Position numbers and translations under genes: made by a program. The notes under the pieces were generated by a model that did not search any database, was not told where the DNA came from, and was given only the letters and a program-made list of their open reading frames with translations. This document shows positions 2,339 to 63,281 of a stretch of DNA of 64,000 nt, in pieces. Positions within the stretch are counted from its first letter, which is position 1. Each line of letters begins with the position of its first letter. The stretch is from Fragilariopsis cylindrus CCMP1102. Its lineage: Eukaryota > Bacillariophyta > Bacillariophyceae > Bacillariales > Bacillariaceae. The stretch lies in contig FMBT01000424.1 of assembly GCA_900095095.1 (NCBI GenBank), positions 1 to 64,000 on the forward strand, read 5' to 3'.

Positions 2339-3567
2339 TTAACCCTCATCATAAATACGACGAGAGCCATCATCATGAAAACTATTACTACCGCAACGAT
2401 CAATGTTACTTGACAATAAGCCACTATCAGAAATACTATTGCAGCTATTGTTATTGTTATTATCATTATTGTCTTCGCGCAGTACTGTAGTAGAAGCAGT
2501 GGTAGTGGCAGTAGTAGAACTATGACAATATAATAATTTGTTTGTATCTATACCTAACCAATAGGCTGGATAACAACGTAATGGATGTAAATTATTGATT
2601 ATAACACCTAAACTCAATGTTAATATTGTACCAAATAATTGTAATATAACTTTATCCCATCCTAATAATTGAGAACTGAATATTAATGCTAATGCACCAC
2701 CTGGTGGATATATGATACACATTTTAGCCATAACAGCAGCTGTTAATGATGTTGCTAATGCCATACGTACACCTAATGGTACACCATATAGACTTGAATA
2801 ACTAATGACTTTACCAATAATCATACCACATAATGCACCACCAATTGTACTACGTGGTTGAGATGGTGACATTGATGTCATCGCAAATATTAATATAACA
2901 GTTGCACCAAATGGGCCCATAATTAATGCAGTTTCTGCTGCTTTATCATCTTTATCATCACCAAAGTCAGTAGCAATAGCACCAACAGCATCAGTATTAT
3001 TTGTACTTGTATCTGGTATTGGTACTATAGAATATCGTCTATCATTTAAATATGTATTGAATAAATTAATTATGTATATTGTAATAAAACTACCAATAAA
3101 TGTAAATATAGTTTGTTTCCAATCCAATGACTTTGGACACAAATCAAATTTCATACCACCACCTTTACCTTTGAATTTTACTATATATGCTATAAAATCT
3201 TTTTTAATTTCATTTGTTATGCAACAAAAACATGTTTTTGCACCCTCCACAACTACACGACTTTGTCGACTCAGCAAATGCTGTTGCTGTTGTTCATGTT
3301 CATTTTCATTTTGTGTTATTTCAAGTGGTTGTTGTTGAACTGTACTGCTATTGATTTTTGTTGTCGCTGTTGTAGTTCCCTCTTCTATGTCTCGTCGATC
3401 ATGCCTGTATTGTTGTCGTTGTCGTGGTTGATCTTGTGATTTACGTACGCTACAACTACCAATATTCGTGTCCGACACTAATAATAAATATGAATACGTT
3501 GTTGCAATATGCTCTGTAGCATTAATCAAAAAAGAATCTTCTTTATTATAACAATTATTAAACATTT

Positions 3568-38666: not shown

Positions 38667-38684
38667 TTAACAGCATTCAAGCTA

Positions 38685-38702
38685 TGGCGCCCCGCGGGGC
38701 GC
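38685..38702. repeat. Subterminal palindrome of the piggyBac element
   Basis: The sequence GGCGCCCCGCGGGGCGCC is its own reverse complement. The equivalent place in the small relative at 62689-63281 holds GGCTCTCAGCCGAGAGCC, with 7-bp arms, a different sequence and the same pairing. Confidence 0.9.
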
Positions 38703-39265
38703 CACTTTTTGGGGTCAATTTTTTGTAGGGGCATATTTCCCTCAAAAAATGGACTTATACCCCCCTATTGAGACACAGTACATCTCCGTTCAAAGACACG
38801 TGCTTTCTTATTAAGTTAAAATAACTCCCAGTGGGTAAGTATGGGGTCTTACTACTCCGGCAGCTGCAGTCCTAAATAAAATTCGGAAGAGCATGTGTTC
38901 AAATATAGAGAGTCGAAAAACGTGCCGGGCAACCCTCTTTTTGGTCAATATTATTATGTGACTCACACCCAAGATTCAAAATTTCAAAAATGAACCAAGT
39001 TTTAAAAAAAAGAAGGAGTCAACGCATCAAAAATATGAGTCAAATGGTCAGTCTTGTAAACTTTTGGGAAAATAACTAGTAAAATTTACTAACAAATCCT
39101 CTTTTTCAACGAAATATTTCAAATTTTCATACTAAGTAACTACTAGCTTTGAATATTTAGTCACTAGCTATTTTCGTCAACTTTACCACGCATTTTACGT
39201 ATTTTCATATTATTACAAAGCCACACCCAATATAATCAAAATATTTGGAGTAAAATGGCAATAAA

Positions 39266-41718
39266 ATGGCTCCTAGAAGCGCCCGAATTAGTTTAGAATG
39301 GGCCAAATCATTAGTAGGACTGTCTATGAAGGTCCCTGATTACTGGTGGGATGGTTGCAAAGGCTATAGGCTAAATGATGGGGTAATTGATTCATACGAT
39401 ATTGTTGAACAAAAATGGAATTTGTTATTAAACAGTAGAGATGACAATGATAGATATCTTATGAATTATACTGCTGTTTCTACCTATGCAGATAGCGACT
39501 CGTCCACTATTGATGAGTACCAGCTTCCATTCGCTGAAATCTATGATGGAGATGATATCATCGATGCTAATAATGGAGTAAGGTATTTTCGAACACCTCC
39601 TTCTGAATGGAGTAAAGTTGAGTTGGAAGATGGTGTTAATGAAGGTGGAAGGACAATAGATCCGATTGAATGGACTGGAGAGAAGGAGGAGCCCGTAAAT
39701 ATAACTGATGAGGAGATCGAATCATTAAAAGACAGTGATGGAGAGATCAGGTATGAGAAAGTTTTTGAATGGCTTCTTCCAAGGTTTGGTGAAGACAACA
39801 ATGAAACTTATTTGATTGGCAAGCTGCAAGAATGAGGAATTATATGAGAAAGAAAGAGGTTGAAGATGGATGGAAACCGAAATACTATCAAGGAGATGAT
39901 ACAATTCAACCTAATCATGTGGCAAGATTCTATGGTTCATTGCTTGCTAAGATGCTAACTGGTAGTCGATCGATTAATCAAATGTTTTGTACAAGAGAAA
40001 TCTTCAATGCAGTACCACCTATTCAAGAATCAATGCCAAAGAATGCTTTGGAAGAATGACTAGCTGTCTGCACTACAGTGACGATTGGGATTCATGGGAG
40101 ATGGGATTGGGATGAGTGTATGATGATCCAAAAGTTATGGCACCACCACACACAGCAAGACATAGAGTGAAACATGGAATATTAGAAGATTGCTATATTC
40201 AGGTATGTATATGTTTGTTGTTGTTGTTGTTGTTTCGAATCGATTACTAACCTACCCTCCTTCTTCTTCTTCTTCTTACAAGCGATGGCAGTACTGTGTC
40301 AACCCATCAAGATGGATTACAACTGATGAAAGTCGAATTGCAGGATGGTATCATAGTTGTATGACTATAGGACCAGACCCCAAACCAATTCGAACTGGGG
40401 CTACTCTTCATACTGTCTGCATTACTCAAGGTCCTCTCAGCTCATACAAGCTGTATGCTAGAGTCTATGGTGGTAAAGATGATCAAGATATGAATGTACA
40501 TCACAGCATACTGTTAAGAGGGCTAAGATGGTATCACTCTATGATTTTATGCTTGAATCCTTTAAACATAAAGGACATTGTGTTGTAATGGACTCTGCAT
40601 ACATGAGTGATGCTATGGCTCAAATCGGTCGAAACCATTGGGGTATTAATATGGTTGGTACTTGTCAATCGGATCGGACAGGGGCTGGAAAGCTTGGCAA
40701 GGCTGATGTCAAAGCAAAGGAAGTTGTTATTGGTAGTCATGAGTCTCTTATGTACCAACACAACACCAAGCCATTGCTTTATACTGTTTGGGGAGACAAC
40801 AACTTTGTCAAGACGCTTTCGAATTTCCATTCACCAGTTGTAGTGAGAGGTGGAATGAAAAGGAAGAAAAGAAATAGAAGCACCAAGAGAAGAGATAGAG
40901 AGTTTACTGATGTTGATTGTCCTATTCAACAAAAGGATTACTGTGAGACATATCATTTGATTGATAAAGGCAATGGTGCTGAAGCCAAGTATGATCTCTC
41001 TACTGAATCGCATTTGCATGGTTGGTCCCCCAAGTTAGCAGCCAGATATTTCAATATGAATATTAATAATGCCTACAAGATTCATTGTTATCTGTTTAAG
41101 AAGCATCATCCAACCAAAATTGTAATGCCCTTGAAAGAATGCATACATAATTTGACACACTCTCTTCTACAAAGAGGTGATACTATGAGGAAGCGAGGGG
41201 GTGGAGCTCCACCCAAAGCGACCAAGGATATTACTACTTCATCGTCTGTGGATGGAAGAAAAGTTAGATCTGATTCTGTTAGACAACCATTCACCTCCCC
41301 TACTGCAACAGTAACTGGTACACCCCAAACCCCAGTGTCTGGTTTAGATCGCAGGACTCTCCAGTATCGACAAGTTGCTTTTAAACGTCGAAAGGAAAGC
41401 CAGCCTGGAAGGAGTCATATATCGATTCCAGTGGTTGTAAAGGGTAATAGGGCTACATCTTATTGCAAGTACAACAAATGCCCTGGTAAGAATACTGGAG
41501 CAAAGAGAAAAAAACCCTATAGGTCAAAGTATGCATGTGAAGAGTGTGGTTTGGAGAAGGGAATCGATTTTTGGCTTTGCAATTCTACCAAGAGTGTGGA
41601 TGGAACTTTGGTTGTAGTTGATTGTCACACAGCATATCATGTGCAAAAGAAATTATATACAGCACCATCACCAGTGAGTACTGCTGAAAGTAGTATTATA
41701 TCCGAGCTAACAGAGTAG
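39266..41718 (+). pseudogene. piggyBac-family transposase, interrupted
   Basis: The segments join up in the order of a DDE_Tnp_1_7 (piggyBac) transposase. The N-terminal part runs from 39266 ('DYWWDGCKGYRLNDGVIDSY'). Then 'MRNYMRKKEVEDGWKPKYY' (39832 on) and a GT-AG intron at 40203-40282. The catalytic core has 'ITTDESRIAGWYHS' (first Asp), 'GHCVVMDSAYMSD' (second Asp) and 'YHLIDKGNGAEAKYDL' (probable third Asp), followed by 'GWSPKLAARYFNMNINNAY'. A C-terminal Cys/His cluster 'CKYNKCPGKN', 'CEECGLEKG', 'DCHTAYH' resembles the zinc-binding end of the family. The frame is lost near 39810 and 40057, an in-frame stop occurs near 40116, and the frame shifts again near 40500, so no intact protein is made from this copy. 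Confidence 0.88.
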
Positions 41719-42196
41719 TAGATACTTAACCAGGTAATATATAACCTCTGTTTAATGGAGATCATGTCCGTTATCTTCTTTTTTACTGTAGTTGAGAGGA
41801 AGACCACATACTATTAGCATGTGTGTTGATACTCGTATATTTCCCATTATCAATCTTGATTCGAACGAAAATCACTGCTATTTAGCGCGTGTTAATTTAG
41901 CGCGCTTTATGGTTTATGTACTCAAATCCGTTGCTTCACTTCAAGGTGATAAAATCTTCCACAGTTATTGGTTTAACTGGTTGAAAAGATAATATTATTA
42001 ACTGAGGTCACTGGTTCGAGTCGATCTAGCGCCATCTTACAGGCTGAATGATTTTGTATTTATCTAGCAATCAACCAGTGAAAATTCGCTATATTTTCTA
42101 AGTTAAATTATTTTTTTTGGAAAAATAACCCGTGATTTAACTAGCAATTTTTTTAATAAAAAGACGAAAAAATCCTTATAGCTTGAATGCTGTTAA

Positions 42197-50639: not shown

Positions 50640-50933
50640 CATTGGGGTGAAAATTTGCACAAGTCCGATGGCTTTGGAATTCTGTAAAAACAAAGGAATC
50701 TCACACGTAAATGTTCTAGCTAGTAGAATAGGATCGAGTACTGTACTACAATACAATGCATGTACAATATAAGTACTTATTGTAGAATTTGTACCGTACA
50801 TTACAGTTTATAAATTATCCAGAGTTACAATTAAGGTTTGTTATTGTTGGTTTGGGGGAAGGCTGTTTGATTTATCACTTGCGATATAATTATTTCAGGG
50901 GAGGGGGATAAAATTGAGACATATTAGGGGTAT

Positions 50934-51132
50934 GAAACAAGGTGAAACATTTTCCCCTTGTTTGACAAACAAGGTGAAACATTTTCCCCTTGTTTGTCAA
51001 ACAAGGGGAAACATTTTCACCTTGTTTCAAACAAGGTGAAACATTTTCACCTTGTTTGAATTCATTCCCTTGTTTTATCGCGCAAAACCTCGCGCTTTTT
51101 CCCCTTGTTTCCCCTTGTTTATCAAACAAGGG
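50934..51132. repeat. Tandem array of short hairpins
   Basis: Four consecutive units have the form AAACAAGG-(G/T)GAAACATTTTC-(A/C)CCTTGTTT, so each unit has 8-bp complementary arms around a ~15-nt loop. They are followed by further CCCCTTGTTT copies and a closing AAACAAGGG. Neighbouring units share arms in opposite orientation, so many alternative stems can form. The minus strand gives a repetitive open frame ('KQGENVSPCL' twice), which I consider incidental. Confidence 0.85.
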
Positions 51133-51168
51133 TACAACATGAAAATGGGAATGTATTGAATCGATGCT

Positions 51169-51460
51169 CCATCAATATAGGTCCATTTAATACAAACTTT
51201 ATAGACGAAATGTAGATATTCGTACCGTTAATAAAGACGAAAAATTTTGGAGTGATTTGGTCATTTCGAATTTTTTTTATGAGGATGTATGCGAGTGGCA
51301 GGCAATTCCTGGCGATTCGAAATATGCCTACCACCCATATAAACCCTCATATAATTTTCCCCAAATGACCAAATTCAACCGAAACTTTTTGTATTTATTA
51401 ACAGTACACGTATCTACATTTCGTCCATAAAGTTTGTATTAAATAGAACCATATTGATGG
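51169..51460. mobile_element. 292-bp foldback (long inverted repeat) element, MITE-like
   Basis: The left arm starts at 51169 (CCATCAATATAGGTCCATTT) and continues with 'ACAAACTTTATAGACGAAAT'. The right arm ends at 51460 and is its reverse complement with scattered changes (…CATTTCGTCCATAAAGTTTG…ACCATATTGATGG). The arms are ~100 bp each; the centre also pairs imperfectly (TATGAGGATGTATGCGAGTGG against CCACCCATATAAACCCTCATA). No protein is encoded. No target duplication is obvious, so the family cannot be named. Confidence 0.75.
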
Positions 51461-51748
51461 AAAATGACACGTTTGGCTTACTAACGGAAGGCCCTGGACT
51501 CACTGTGTTTAGTTGACCTATCCTCTTTTTTTCCACCATTCGTTAATACCCCCGAATCAATCCCTTTTTTGTAGAAATATAGGGGTTATTAAATTAGAAT
51601 TCGGAAGTCGTTGAAAAAACTGTTGACAAAGACAGCAGTCCGTCCTAAGAAGTTACAATTCGAGTATTTTAGTAGAGTAAGTAGCAGAAATGCAAATGCT
51701 GTTGGCTTCTATCGAGCAGAGGTAATAGACTAAAAGTCAGTTCCAACA

Positions 51749-58031: not shown

Positions 58032-60296
58032 ATGAGTAGTCCTAATAGTGCTAGTGGAGCTACTAGTAATATCTTTGGTGGTGGTAAAACTATAAATAAT
58101 GGTGGCGGCAGCGGTAACAACACTACGTCTTCCGAAGATGATGATGATTATGGTGGTCATGACACGACGAGAACTACTAACACTACTGCTGCGGTGGGCA
58201 GCCATCAGCGTCAGTATCTGCTAGGGGGTAAGAATATATTGGGTGGAAAATCTATTAAGGCTATGAGGAATGAAGACGAAGATGAAGATGAAACAGATAT
58301 CGACGACGACGACGATGATGATAATAATAATAATAATAATAATAGTGATGGGGACAACGATGAGGAGGGAATTTCAATAGGTGAAGAATCTTTACAACAT
58401 CAAGAAGAAGAAGAAGAAGAAGAAGAAGAGGAGAAGATGGAAGTAGAAGCAGATGTGGAGGAGGAAGAAGATGACGAAGAAGACGAAGAAGTTGATGTTG
58501 ACATTACCGAAAAAGAGAACGAAGACGACGAAGAAGATCAATCAATGGAGAAAAATTATAATGTCAATAACGAAAATAATGCTGGCAACAACTATGAAGA
58601 AGAGGAAGACGAATTACAAGAAGAAGAAGAAGAACAACAACAACAACAACAACAACAACATCAGCAGCAAGGCCTAAAAAAGCAACGTCCAGAAGATCCA
58701 ATATCGATACAGTTCCAAGAACAGGGAAAGCAGAAAAATCCATCACAGGCACAGGAAGAAGAAGAAGAAGAGGAAGGAGAGGGAGACAAACAAACACAAT
58801 TAGAGGCATGGAAGGAAGTACATACATGTTTGACACGGGCTGTATTAGTTGCACGGGAGGCAATTGCATCGAAAAAATTACAACGTAGGTTTTGGTTAGA
58901 AACAATCTGTGCTAATCTTACCCGTCCGGTTGACAACATTGTCGTACCACCTGTTGCAACAGTAGTAGTAGCAGTAGATGAAACTAGTAGAAGTATTACG
59001 AATGATGAAAATGATGATGATGCTGTATCACATTCGCAAACACGATTAATGTCACATTCAATTTGGTTCAAACCTGATCAACGAAAGAAAAAACGTGGAA
59101 AACAAAAAAAGAGAACTGCTGATTCTGCTAAGAAGGAAGAAGATAATGATCATGATTATTATCGTGGAAAACAAAAAAAGAGAACAAAGACTGCAACAAA
59201 CTCTTCATCGTCAACGAAGAAGAATCCTTCAATTATGTTGCCAACGACAAAGAAAAAGAAGAAAGCAGCAACAGTTGCAACAGGAACAGGAACGGCGACA
59301 ACAATAAAGAAAAGAAAGAAAGCGATTCTACCTATGAAGGCAAAACTGGCATCATCTACTATCAAGAATAAAATGAAGACAAATGATAATAAGAAGAAAA
59401 CTACCGGTGCGACTGGTAAGGCAACGAGTACAACCGTTCGGAAACGACGTATGACTGCACAATTACCTAGAACCAGTAATAGTAATAAAACGAAACCGAA
59501 AATACGTCTTAGTATTAGTCAATCTAAGATTACTGCATCAACGGCAACAGCATCTGTAGAATCAGTCCCTCGATTATCGGTGTTTGGAGACGATGACGAC
59601 AGTGACGAAGATGAGGATGTAAATGAAAATGTTGCAATAGAAATCGATGAGAAGGATTATGATGACGATACTGACGAGTACGACATCGATAATGGCAATG
59701 ATAATAGTAACAATAATGCAGTGGAAGATGAAATTAAGAAACAGTCTTCTTCATCTTATGCATTTGCTCTCAATGCATCATCATCGTCAGAAGCTTCATC
59801 AGTAGCCTCTGACAATAATGATAGTGACAATGAAAAAGAGGAAAAAGAACATGATAGCGACGACGAAACAGAAGAAGAGGAAGACGATAATAATAACAAT
59901 GACGATAGTGATGATGCAAGTGACGACGATGACGATGACAACGAAGAGGAAGATGCGGACGATGATGATGATGATGATGATGAACGGGCTCCTACATCTC
60001 CTGATTGGGGTGCTTCTCAAAATCGGCATCCGTATTTATCAACGAAACGACGACGATCGTCTATAGCTAGATTGGATAGTTCTGGTATATATTCAACATT
60101 TAATGTTGAGGGAGCAACTGCAGCATCAACAACAACGGAGCCCCCATCATCTGCAGTGACGGCGACTGGAGAAACAGCAGCAGCAGGAACAACGACCGGT
60201 GGTGCTTTGACTGCAGGCGGCGGTGGAGGTGGTGGATTTAGTTCATATGGATTCGGTGGAAGTGAATCATCATCCGAAGATGAGATTCCGTTTTAA
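58032..60296 (+). CDS. Highly acidic, Lys-rich low-complexity protein, probably nuclear
   Basis: 754 residues, single exon, frame clean throughout. Residues 80-260 are almost all Glu/Asp with a Gln run. The only globular-looking segment is 'LEAWKEVHTCLTRAVLVARE' to 'KKLQRRFWLETICANLTRPV' (~257-300), helical. A Lys-rich region (~350-510) holds a repeated 'RGKQKKRT' at ~355 and ~378 and several NLS-like clusters. A second acidic block and a Gly-rich end 'GGGFSSYGFGGSESSSEDE' follow. Alternating acidic and basic tracts are typical of chromatin or nucleolar proteins, but I recognise no family. Its unbroken frame through extreme repeats is a useful contrast to the formin and LRR genes. Confidence 0.7.
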   Translation: MSSPNSASGATSNIFGGGKTINNGGGSGNNTTSSEDDDDYGGHDTTRTTNTTAAVGSHQRQYLLGGKNILGGKSIKAMRNEDEDEDETDIDDDDDDDNNNNNNNSDGDNDEEGISIGEESLQHQEEEEEEEEEEKMEVEADVEEEEDDEEDEEVDVDITEKENEDDEEDQSMEKNYNVNNENNAGNNYEEEEDELQEEEEEQQQQQQQQHQQQGLKKQRPEDPISIQFQEQGKQKNPSQAQEEEEEEEGEGDKQTQLEAWKEVHTCLTRAVLVAREAIASKKLQRRFWLETICANLTRPVDNIVVPPVATVVVAVDETSRSITNDENDDDAVSHSQTRLMSHSIWFKPDQRKKKRGKQKKRTADSAKKEEDNDHDYYRGKQKKRTKTATNSSSSTKKNPSIMLPTTKKKKKAATVATGTGTATTIKKRKKAILPMKAKLASSTIKNKMKTNDNKKKTTGATGKATSTTVRKRRMTAQLPRTSNSNKTKPKIRLSISQSKITASTATASVESVPRLSVFGDDDDSDEDEDVNENVAIEIDEKDYDDDTDEYDIDNGNDNSNNNAVEDEIKKQSSSSYAFALNASSSSEASSVASDNNDSDNEKEEKEHDSDDETEEEEDDNNNNDDSDDASDDDDDDNEEEDADDDDDDDDERAPTSPDWGASQNRHPYLSTKRRRSSIARLDSSGIYSTFNVEGATAASTTTEPPSSAVTATGETAAAGTTTGGALTAGGGGGGGFSSYGFGGSESSSEDEIPF

Positions 60297-62688: not shown

Positions 62689-63281
62689 TTAACAGGATTC
62701 CTGTTAAAAGGAATTTTGCAGTATTTTACGCGTGTTAATAACACGCGTTAATTGGAAGAAGAAATTTTCAAAAATAAGATGAAAATCTTTGGAAGCTGAT
62801 AATAATAAAAATACTAGTGCAAAATTGTACAAATTCGACGCATGCAAGAATCGAACCAACGTCCTTGTACTGAACCGCGGTGGTGTGTCACCAACTACGC
62901 TACAAGCGGAGTTACGTTGATTCGTGCAAGTCCCTAAATATTCTGAGGATATATAGATTGAAAAAATCGCGCAGAAAACCCACTCAAATTATTCCTCGTG
63001 CTTTTACTCGCGCCGGATTCGATCCCTGCACCTCTCTCGCGAATTTTCCCAGGGGGCTCTTCCGATTTATTATTATTGCCACGTATTACGCTGTAGGTAC
63101 GGCCAATACAAAGCTTTTTCCGCGTATTTTCACTGAATAAGAAAGCACACGCCGTTGAACGGAGACGCGCTGTGTCTCAATAGGGGGCGCTAAGTCCGTT
63201 TTTTGGGGGAGAAATGCCCCCCCGAAAAATACACCCCAAAAAGTGGCTCTCGGCTGAGAGCCATAACAGGAATCCTGTTAA
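62689..63281. mobile_element. Non-autonomous piggyBac-type element (593 bp)
   Basis: TTAA lies at both ends (62689-62692 and 63278-63281). Both ends read TTAACAGGATTCCTGTTA inwards, a perfect 18-nt terminal inverted repeat that is itself almost a palindrome. From the right end inwards come TATGGC, the hairpin GGCTCTCAGCCGAGAGCC, CACTTTTTGGGGT, and then a strip matching the left subterminal strip of the large element (38685-38817), including CCCCTATTGAGACACAG, CTCCGTTCAA and GTGCTTTCTTATT. It is thus a relative in inverted orientation. No transposase is encoded. A perfect palindrome ACGCGTGTTAATAACACGCG(T) lies near the left end at about 62728-62748. Confidence 0.9.
62841..62915 (-). other. 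tRNA-like sequence with A and B boxes
   Basis: On the minus strand TAGCGTAGTTGG (62902-62891) fits the tRNA D-arm/A box and GGTTCGATTC (62857-62848) fits the T-arm/B box, 33 nt apart as in a tRNA. The acceptor stem does not pair and the T stem is mostly wobble, so it is not a working tRNA. It may be a tRNA-derived remnant inside the small transposon, or chance. Confidence 0.4.

Follow-up and report, generated by a model that had tools for sequence, protein, structure and literature searches.

The palindrome at the left end of a family of piggyBac-type transposons in the diatom Fragilariopsis cylindrus CCMP1102 is very probably a symmetric duplex site, bound by a dimer of the cysteine-rich domain (CRD) at the C terminus of the transposase and coevolving with that enzyme. 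The two arms of the palindrome covary among copies much as the two sides of a stem would. The initial annotation of this DNA had argued that a hairpin structure, and not its sequence, is under selection; symmetry is indeed kept while the letters change, but the sequence is not irrelevant, as the letters of each half-site track CRD residues encoded 2.8 kb away.

Two palindromes of this kind lie in the window (the whole stretch that was analyzed, 64,000 nucleotides of contig FMBT01000424.1, assembly GCA_900095095.1), each in the left end of a TTAA-flanked element. The first, GGCGCCCCGCGGGGCGCC, occupies positions 38686 to 38703 of the plus strand, one base to the right of the span originally assigned to it (38685 to 38702); the second, GGCTCTCAGCCGAGAGCC, is found at 63245 to 63262 on the minus strand, and neither was present in any of 100 shuffles of the window (0/100). 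As first described, their context is the same, with an identical upstream TATGGC and an identical flank, GCCACTTTTTGGGGT, and two arm positions differ in a paired fashion: pair 4 is G-C in one and T-A in the other, and pair 6 is C-G in one and T-A in the other, so both remain paired. The central bases also differ.

The larger element runs for 3,530 bp from TTAA to TTAA (38667 to 42196, plus strand), and its transposase gene is broken in this copy. A 15-bp left tip, CAGCATTCAAGCTAT (38671 to 38685), is followed by the palindrome, which lies at bp 16 to 33 from the tip (TTAA uncounted) and has the half-site GGCGCCC (class B, below), and then by a conserved flank, ACTTTTTGGGGT (38704 to 38715), which served as an anchor. 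The N-terminal piece of the broken frame (MAPRSARISLEW...) lies at 39266 to 39832, as converted from element coordinates, and a C-terminal transposase ORF of 396 amino acids, with a match to DDE_Tnp_1_7 (PF13843; E value of 3e-12 in the window ORF), at 40528 to 41718. The CRD is encoded at 41422 to 41715; within it, the codons for the residues equivalent to residues 732 and 755 of copy L019, both arginine here, occupy 41449 to 41451 and 41521 to 41523, respectively, all on the plus strand. The right end (42178 to 42196, minus strand) consists of TTAA and the 15-bp tip seen on the left, but has no palindrome. The second element is a short, MITE-like copy of 593 bp (62689 to 63281, minus strand), and its palindrome has the half-site GGCTCTC (class C), with one central base altered relative to the commoner AGCT.

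Several other features of the window were recorded. Palindromic units about 32 bp long (CAAACAAGG...CCTTGTTTG) are repeated in tandem at 50930 to 51132, with four copies at 50930 to 51059 and a further part at 51108 to 51132. An inverted repeat at 51168 to 51461, with 137-nucleotide arms that are 78% complementary and a 20-nucleotide gap, resembles another short inverted-repeat element; the mutually similar flanks of copies L010, L026, L034, and L076 perhaps derive from this same repeat. An ORF of 754 amino acids at 58032 to 60296 contains many acidic-codon repeats and gave no match in a Pfam search. A second, less variable palindrome, CGCGTGTTAATAACACGCG, is found at 62729 to 62747 and, in many of the short copies, some 40 to 60 bp in from the right end; the corresponding DNA of full-length copies is of the CACGTG type.

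Further members of the family were collected from the same genome, which also contains a silicon transporter match (PF03842, E value of 1.1e-226), a diatom trait; one scan of viral contigs found nothing. An anchor outside the palindrome, ACTTTTTGGGGTNNNTTTTT, matched at 173 places with at most two mismatches, versus 64 for the reversed control. Seventy-four element ends were examined in a first pass and 89 after more DNA had been fetched, duplicates included, and 14 full-length copies (about 3.5 kb) and 31 short copies were delimited. TTAA is present at both termini of all 14 full-length copies; a small number of short or old copies have one of its bases changed. Each full-length copy (14/14) contains a single palindrome of this pattern, which lies at bp 16 to 33 from the left tip, and none at the right end, where the 15-bp tip is otherwise the same as on the left in 13 of the 14 (L015 differs by one base). 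The tips fall into a few types; two of these, AGG and CTG, compared in nine copies, are split by five transposase columns. The transposase has about 820 residues, with an open reading frame in 7/14 full-length copies, and its C terminus is a cysteine-rich segment. The assignment to the piggyBac type, already made from the letters, is borne out by the TTAA ends and by PF13843, which was found above its curated cutoff in two open copies (E values of 2.7e-12 and 5e-17); it was the only domain to pass the cutoff in the two open proteins scanned, neither of which showed an HuH/Rep-type enzyme.

The assembly contains duplicate contigs, as seen from identical flanks and from identical scores on contig pairs in the PF03842 search. 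L045 appears to be the same insertion as L069 and L090 on different contigs, the flanks of L045 and L069 scoring 103 over 110 bases, and the palindromes of L069 and L090 are damaged through small indels. Different copies also occupy the same TTAA target in flanking sequences that are related (L023/L036/L085, L043/L074, and L035/L079).

To measure covariation we used a flank-only pattern with 18 free bases in between, which matched at 93 places with no mismatch or one (62 and 31, respectively). We excluded four unrelated chance matches (C43, C664, C90:120095, and C525) and two presumed duplicates, C367 for a flank in common with C307 and C760 only for a palindrome equal to that of C711; this left 87 palindromes, 39 of them distinct, a set that may include further duplicate contigs among the places not fetched. 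Collecting further copies had been suggested as the way to examine covariation, and in this genome the outcome is clear: over arm pairs 1 to 7 of the 39 distinct palindromes, 243 of 273 cells are Watson-Crick, compared with a mean of 186 and a maximum of 206 when the 3' letters are shuffled (0/5,000 shuffles reach the observed value). Pair 4 occurs as G-C, T-A, A-T, and C-G, pair 6 as C-G, G-C, and T-A, and pair 7 as C-G, A-T, and G-C. Pairing declines toward the center, with pair 8 paired in 18/39 (a level reached by 12/5,000 shuffles) and pair 9 in 16/39, which is no better than shuffles (619/5,000).

Alleles that recur are the better paired. Among the 10 alleles found two or more times, 67/70 arm pairs are Watson-Crick and none is G.T, whereas the 29 alleles seen once have 176/203 Watson-Crick pairs plus six G.T, which argues that the palindrome is kept among the copies that spread. 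The failures among repeated alleles involve pair 4 in GGCTCCCCACGGGGCGCC (three copies) and GGCTCCCCACAGGGCGCC (two copies) and pair 7 in GGCGCTGTTAAAAGCGCC (two copies); palindromes with pair 4 unpaired, GGCTCCCCACNGGGCGCC, account for 5 of the 87, a point against the duplex-site reading. Free loss of pairing within unchanged flanks had been named as the result that would speak against selection; such loss is mostly confined to single-copy variants, although some ends with the same flank have no palindrome. They include the left ends of L042 (minus strand), L089, and L102, in which the downstream flank and the tip-like DNA are still present; L042 and L089 appear to be a single insertion on two contigs.

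Symmetry of this kind could arise with no selection at all if, during DNA synthesis, template switching from one arm to the other kept the palindrome perfect and flipped its center. Two alleles do have a flipped center within unchanged arms (GGTG and CACC), and in yeast, short inverted arms are reported to be homogenized and their spacers inverted (PMC8604942). The arms here, however, are 7 to 9 bp, the poorer pairing of single alleles argues that in-place correction is insufficient, and template switching predicts no match between palindrome and transposase, such as is described below. We consider it very unlikely as the sole cause and have set it aside in that role, but it may be a source of the two-sided changes. 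A terminator-like reading (a GC stem followed by TTTTT), made from the letters alone, was dropped, as no link to the CRD would be expected from it.

The palindromes of the 14 full-length copies fall into half-site classes A (GGCGCCA), B (GGCGCCC), C (GGCTCTC), and D/E [GGCTCG(G/C)], and we compared these with the transposase, scoring 809 columns, of which 350 are variable. Residue 755 is the sole column that separates all four classes perfectly: it is proline with class A, arginine with B, lysine with C, and methionine with D/E. At the DNA level, the middle base of codon 755 is likewise the only perfect column. The 14 copies are related to one another and are not independent samples; no perfect column arose, however, when classes were shuffled freely (0/2,000) or within the two body lineages (0/2,000), nor in any of 600,000 columns generated by simulation along the body tree under ten settings. 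Residue 755 was then predicted from the palindrome of seven further copies before their CRDs were read, and all seven predictions were correct (7/7), these copies being mostly close kin of the training copies. A search for the CRD listed 83 matches, which include many fragments and distant relatives. All 21 copies in which palindrome and CRD could both be read are consistent at residue 755 (21/21), a set that leaves out C91, C266, and C354, where the palindrome is lost or altered and a CRD match lies at a fitting distance. The distant family with the CAGCTTTC tip (L058 to L060, CRD about 49% identical) breaks the rule, with lysine at the corresponding place and the half-site TGCTCCA; we excluded it on grounds of its distance, a decision that favors the coevolution reading.

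Residue 732 ranks second, with an association of 0.855. It is threonine when base 7 of the half-site is G (L011 and L041), arginine in classes B and E, where base 7 is C, and asparagine in class C; for class A, whose copies lack one residue nearby, column 732 is uncertain. It was also predicted correctly before reading in 4/4 cases, four of the same seven copies and again mostly kin of the training copies. Copies L011 and L012, whose bodies are 98.3% identical, have palindromes that differ at pair 7 alone and CRDs that differ at three residues, including 732. More generally, different palindromes are found on copies that are 93 to 98% identical over 3.4 kb.

A match of this sort might reflect hitchhiking, with the palindrome and residue 755 both marking element lineages that spread as units. 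The copies are related, and although each main half-site class is found on several tip types, class is associated with tip type (0/5,000 shuffles reach the observed value) and with the next downstream bases (15/5,000; 71 ends in both cases), in part owing to old copies, in which both are different. Yet the DNA between the palindrome and the CRD lacks the match, above all next to the palindrome: the association with class is at most 0.21 for the 17 variable columns at element positions 38 to 150 and at most 0.57 for the 112 at positions 151 to 586, whereas it reaches 1.00 among the 127 variable columns of the CRD-coding stretch (2701 to 3043); elsewhere in the gene, three columns lie between 0.6 and 0.72. 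Class B with arginine and class D/E with methionine each occur on both transposase/body lineages, which are about 75% identical in DNA. The body tree requires at least six changes of half-site class, and since the match is one to one, residue 755 changes together with class. As neither within-lineage shuffles nor tree simulations reproduce the match, we regard hitchhiking as extremely improbable.

The same match bears on the reading favored by the initial annotation, that transposition requires a hairpin or cruciform at the left end, for its shape rather than its sequence. Strong arm covariation is in its favor, as is the greater freedom of the center relative to the arms, which would be expected of a loop; hairpin or cruciform forms have been raised for piggyBac-like subterminal repeats in a preprint on PGBD5 (PMC12324416), and a hairpin read with some sequence preference would likewise covary with the protein. 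Against it, no G.T pair is found among the 70 arm pairs of repeated alleles, and the piggyBac-type palindromes described at this place are bound as duplexes (PMC7351741 and PMC11707139). Pairing is also not independent of arm sequence, as it would be at an end recognized by structure; arm class corresponds one to one to residue 755 in every one of the 21 copies. Once the letters of the half-sites proved to go with the transposase, selection for a hairpin or cruciform became a rival reading, and one that we judge unlikely.

We propose instead that the palindrome acts as a double-stranded, twofold-symmetric site to which a dimer of CRDs would bind, each copy of the domain reading one 7-bp half-site. 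Residue 755 would go with bases 4 and 6 of the half-site and residue 732, apparently, with base 7, in both cases possibly by direct contact. If the preference of the CRD shifts, both half-sites must shift alike, and the arms would covary like a stem; twofold-symmetric recognition by a protein can thus give apparently compensatory changes without folding. A matching symmetric site would act as a filter on new insertions, including those of short copies that use the transposase of another element, while template switching could supply two-sided changes and flipped centers. AlphaFold models were of too low a confidence to bear on this (mean pLDDT of 28.8 for the whole transposase and 36.8 for the CRD).

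At least four, and perhaps five, parallel transposase/end pairs of the family might exist in this one genome, their main differences lying in CRD residues 755 and 732 and in the half-sites that match them. The same pairs are seen on bodies that are about 75% identical, despite the 2.8-kb separation of the two parts, as if these had been exchanged or had re-evolved together, and a specificity code of a few residues could yield sets of elements and MITEs without cross-mobilization; we put this forward tentatively, as a suggestion with somewhat less than an even chance of being right. Among the matches listed from the open-license PMC literature, no title or abstract opening reported that a piggyBac-type CRD coevolves with the end of its element. 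If the proposal is correct, the family is a natural record of a eukaryotic DDE transposase changing its DNA preference along with its own binding site, in which the likely residues and bases are already indicated. How transposon lineages cease to cross-mobilize would then be testable by a few binding assays, and the pairs could be of use in designing orthogonal piggyBac-type tools. The family would also caution against inferring a folded structure from changes in a DNA palindrome that look compensatory.

Helitrons, IS200/IS605 elements, and integron attC sites have hairpin ends at which a folded strand is recognized. The diatom element resembles them in having a palindrome near the end of a mobile element, with pairing kept while the letters vary; unlike them, it has a transposase with a PF13843 domain, and the letters of its half-sites track that enzyme. 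The closer likeness in ends and enzyme is to piggyBac from Trichoplusia ni, with which it shares TTAA ends, a PF13843-type transposase, and a cysteine-rich C terminus, although PDB sequence searches matched no piggyBac chain and revealed no sequence match between the two CRDs. Counting back from the third cysteine, in what we take to be the piggyBac sequence, residue 755 would match the position of K569. In piggyBac, a CRD dimer is described as binding the left-end palindrome at bp 17 to 33, compared with bp 16 to 33 here, as a duplex bent by about 40°, with Y558, R567, and K569 named as crucial for recognition (PMC7351741). The main diatom alleles are GC-rich, unlike the piggyBac site, and the palindrome is confined to the left end, whereas the piggyBac repeat is reported at both ends (PMC7351741). 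In this respect the element is closer to piggyBat from Myotis lucifugus, whose right end is also described as having no repeat, which indicates that a missing right-end palindrome does not exclude membership of the piggyBac superfamily; the left end of piggyBat is reported to have three palindromes, compared with one here (PMC11707139). The piggyBat CRDs are described as binding an imperfect left-end palindrome unrelated in sequence to that of piggyBac (PMC11707139), and divergence of this site between families is thus already known. In the diatom, by contrast, the divergence is found among the copies of one genome, where several half-site classes track the residues of the CRD.
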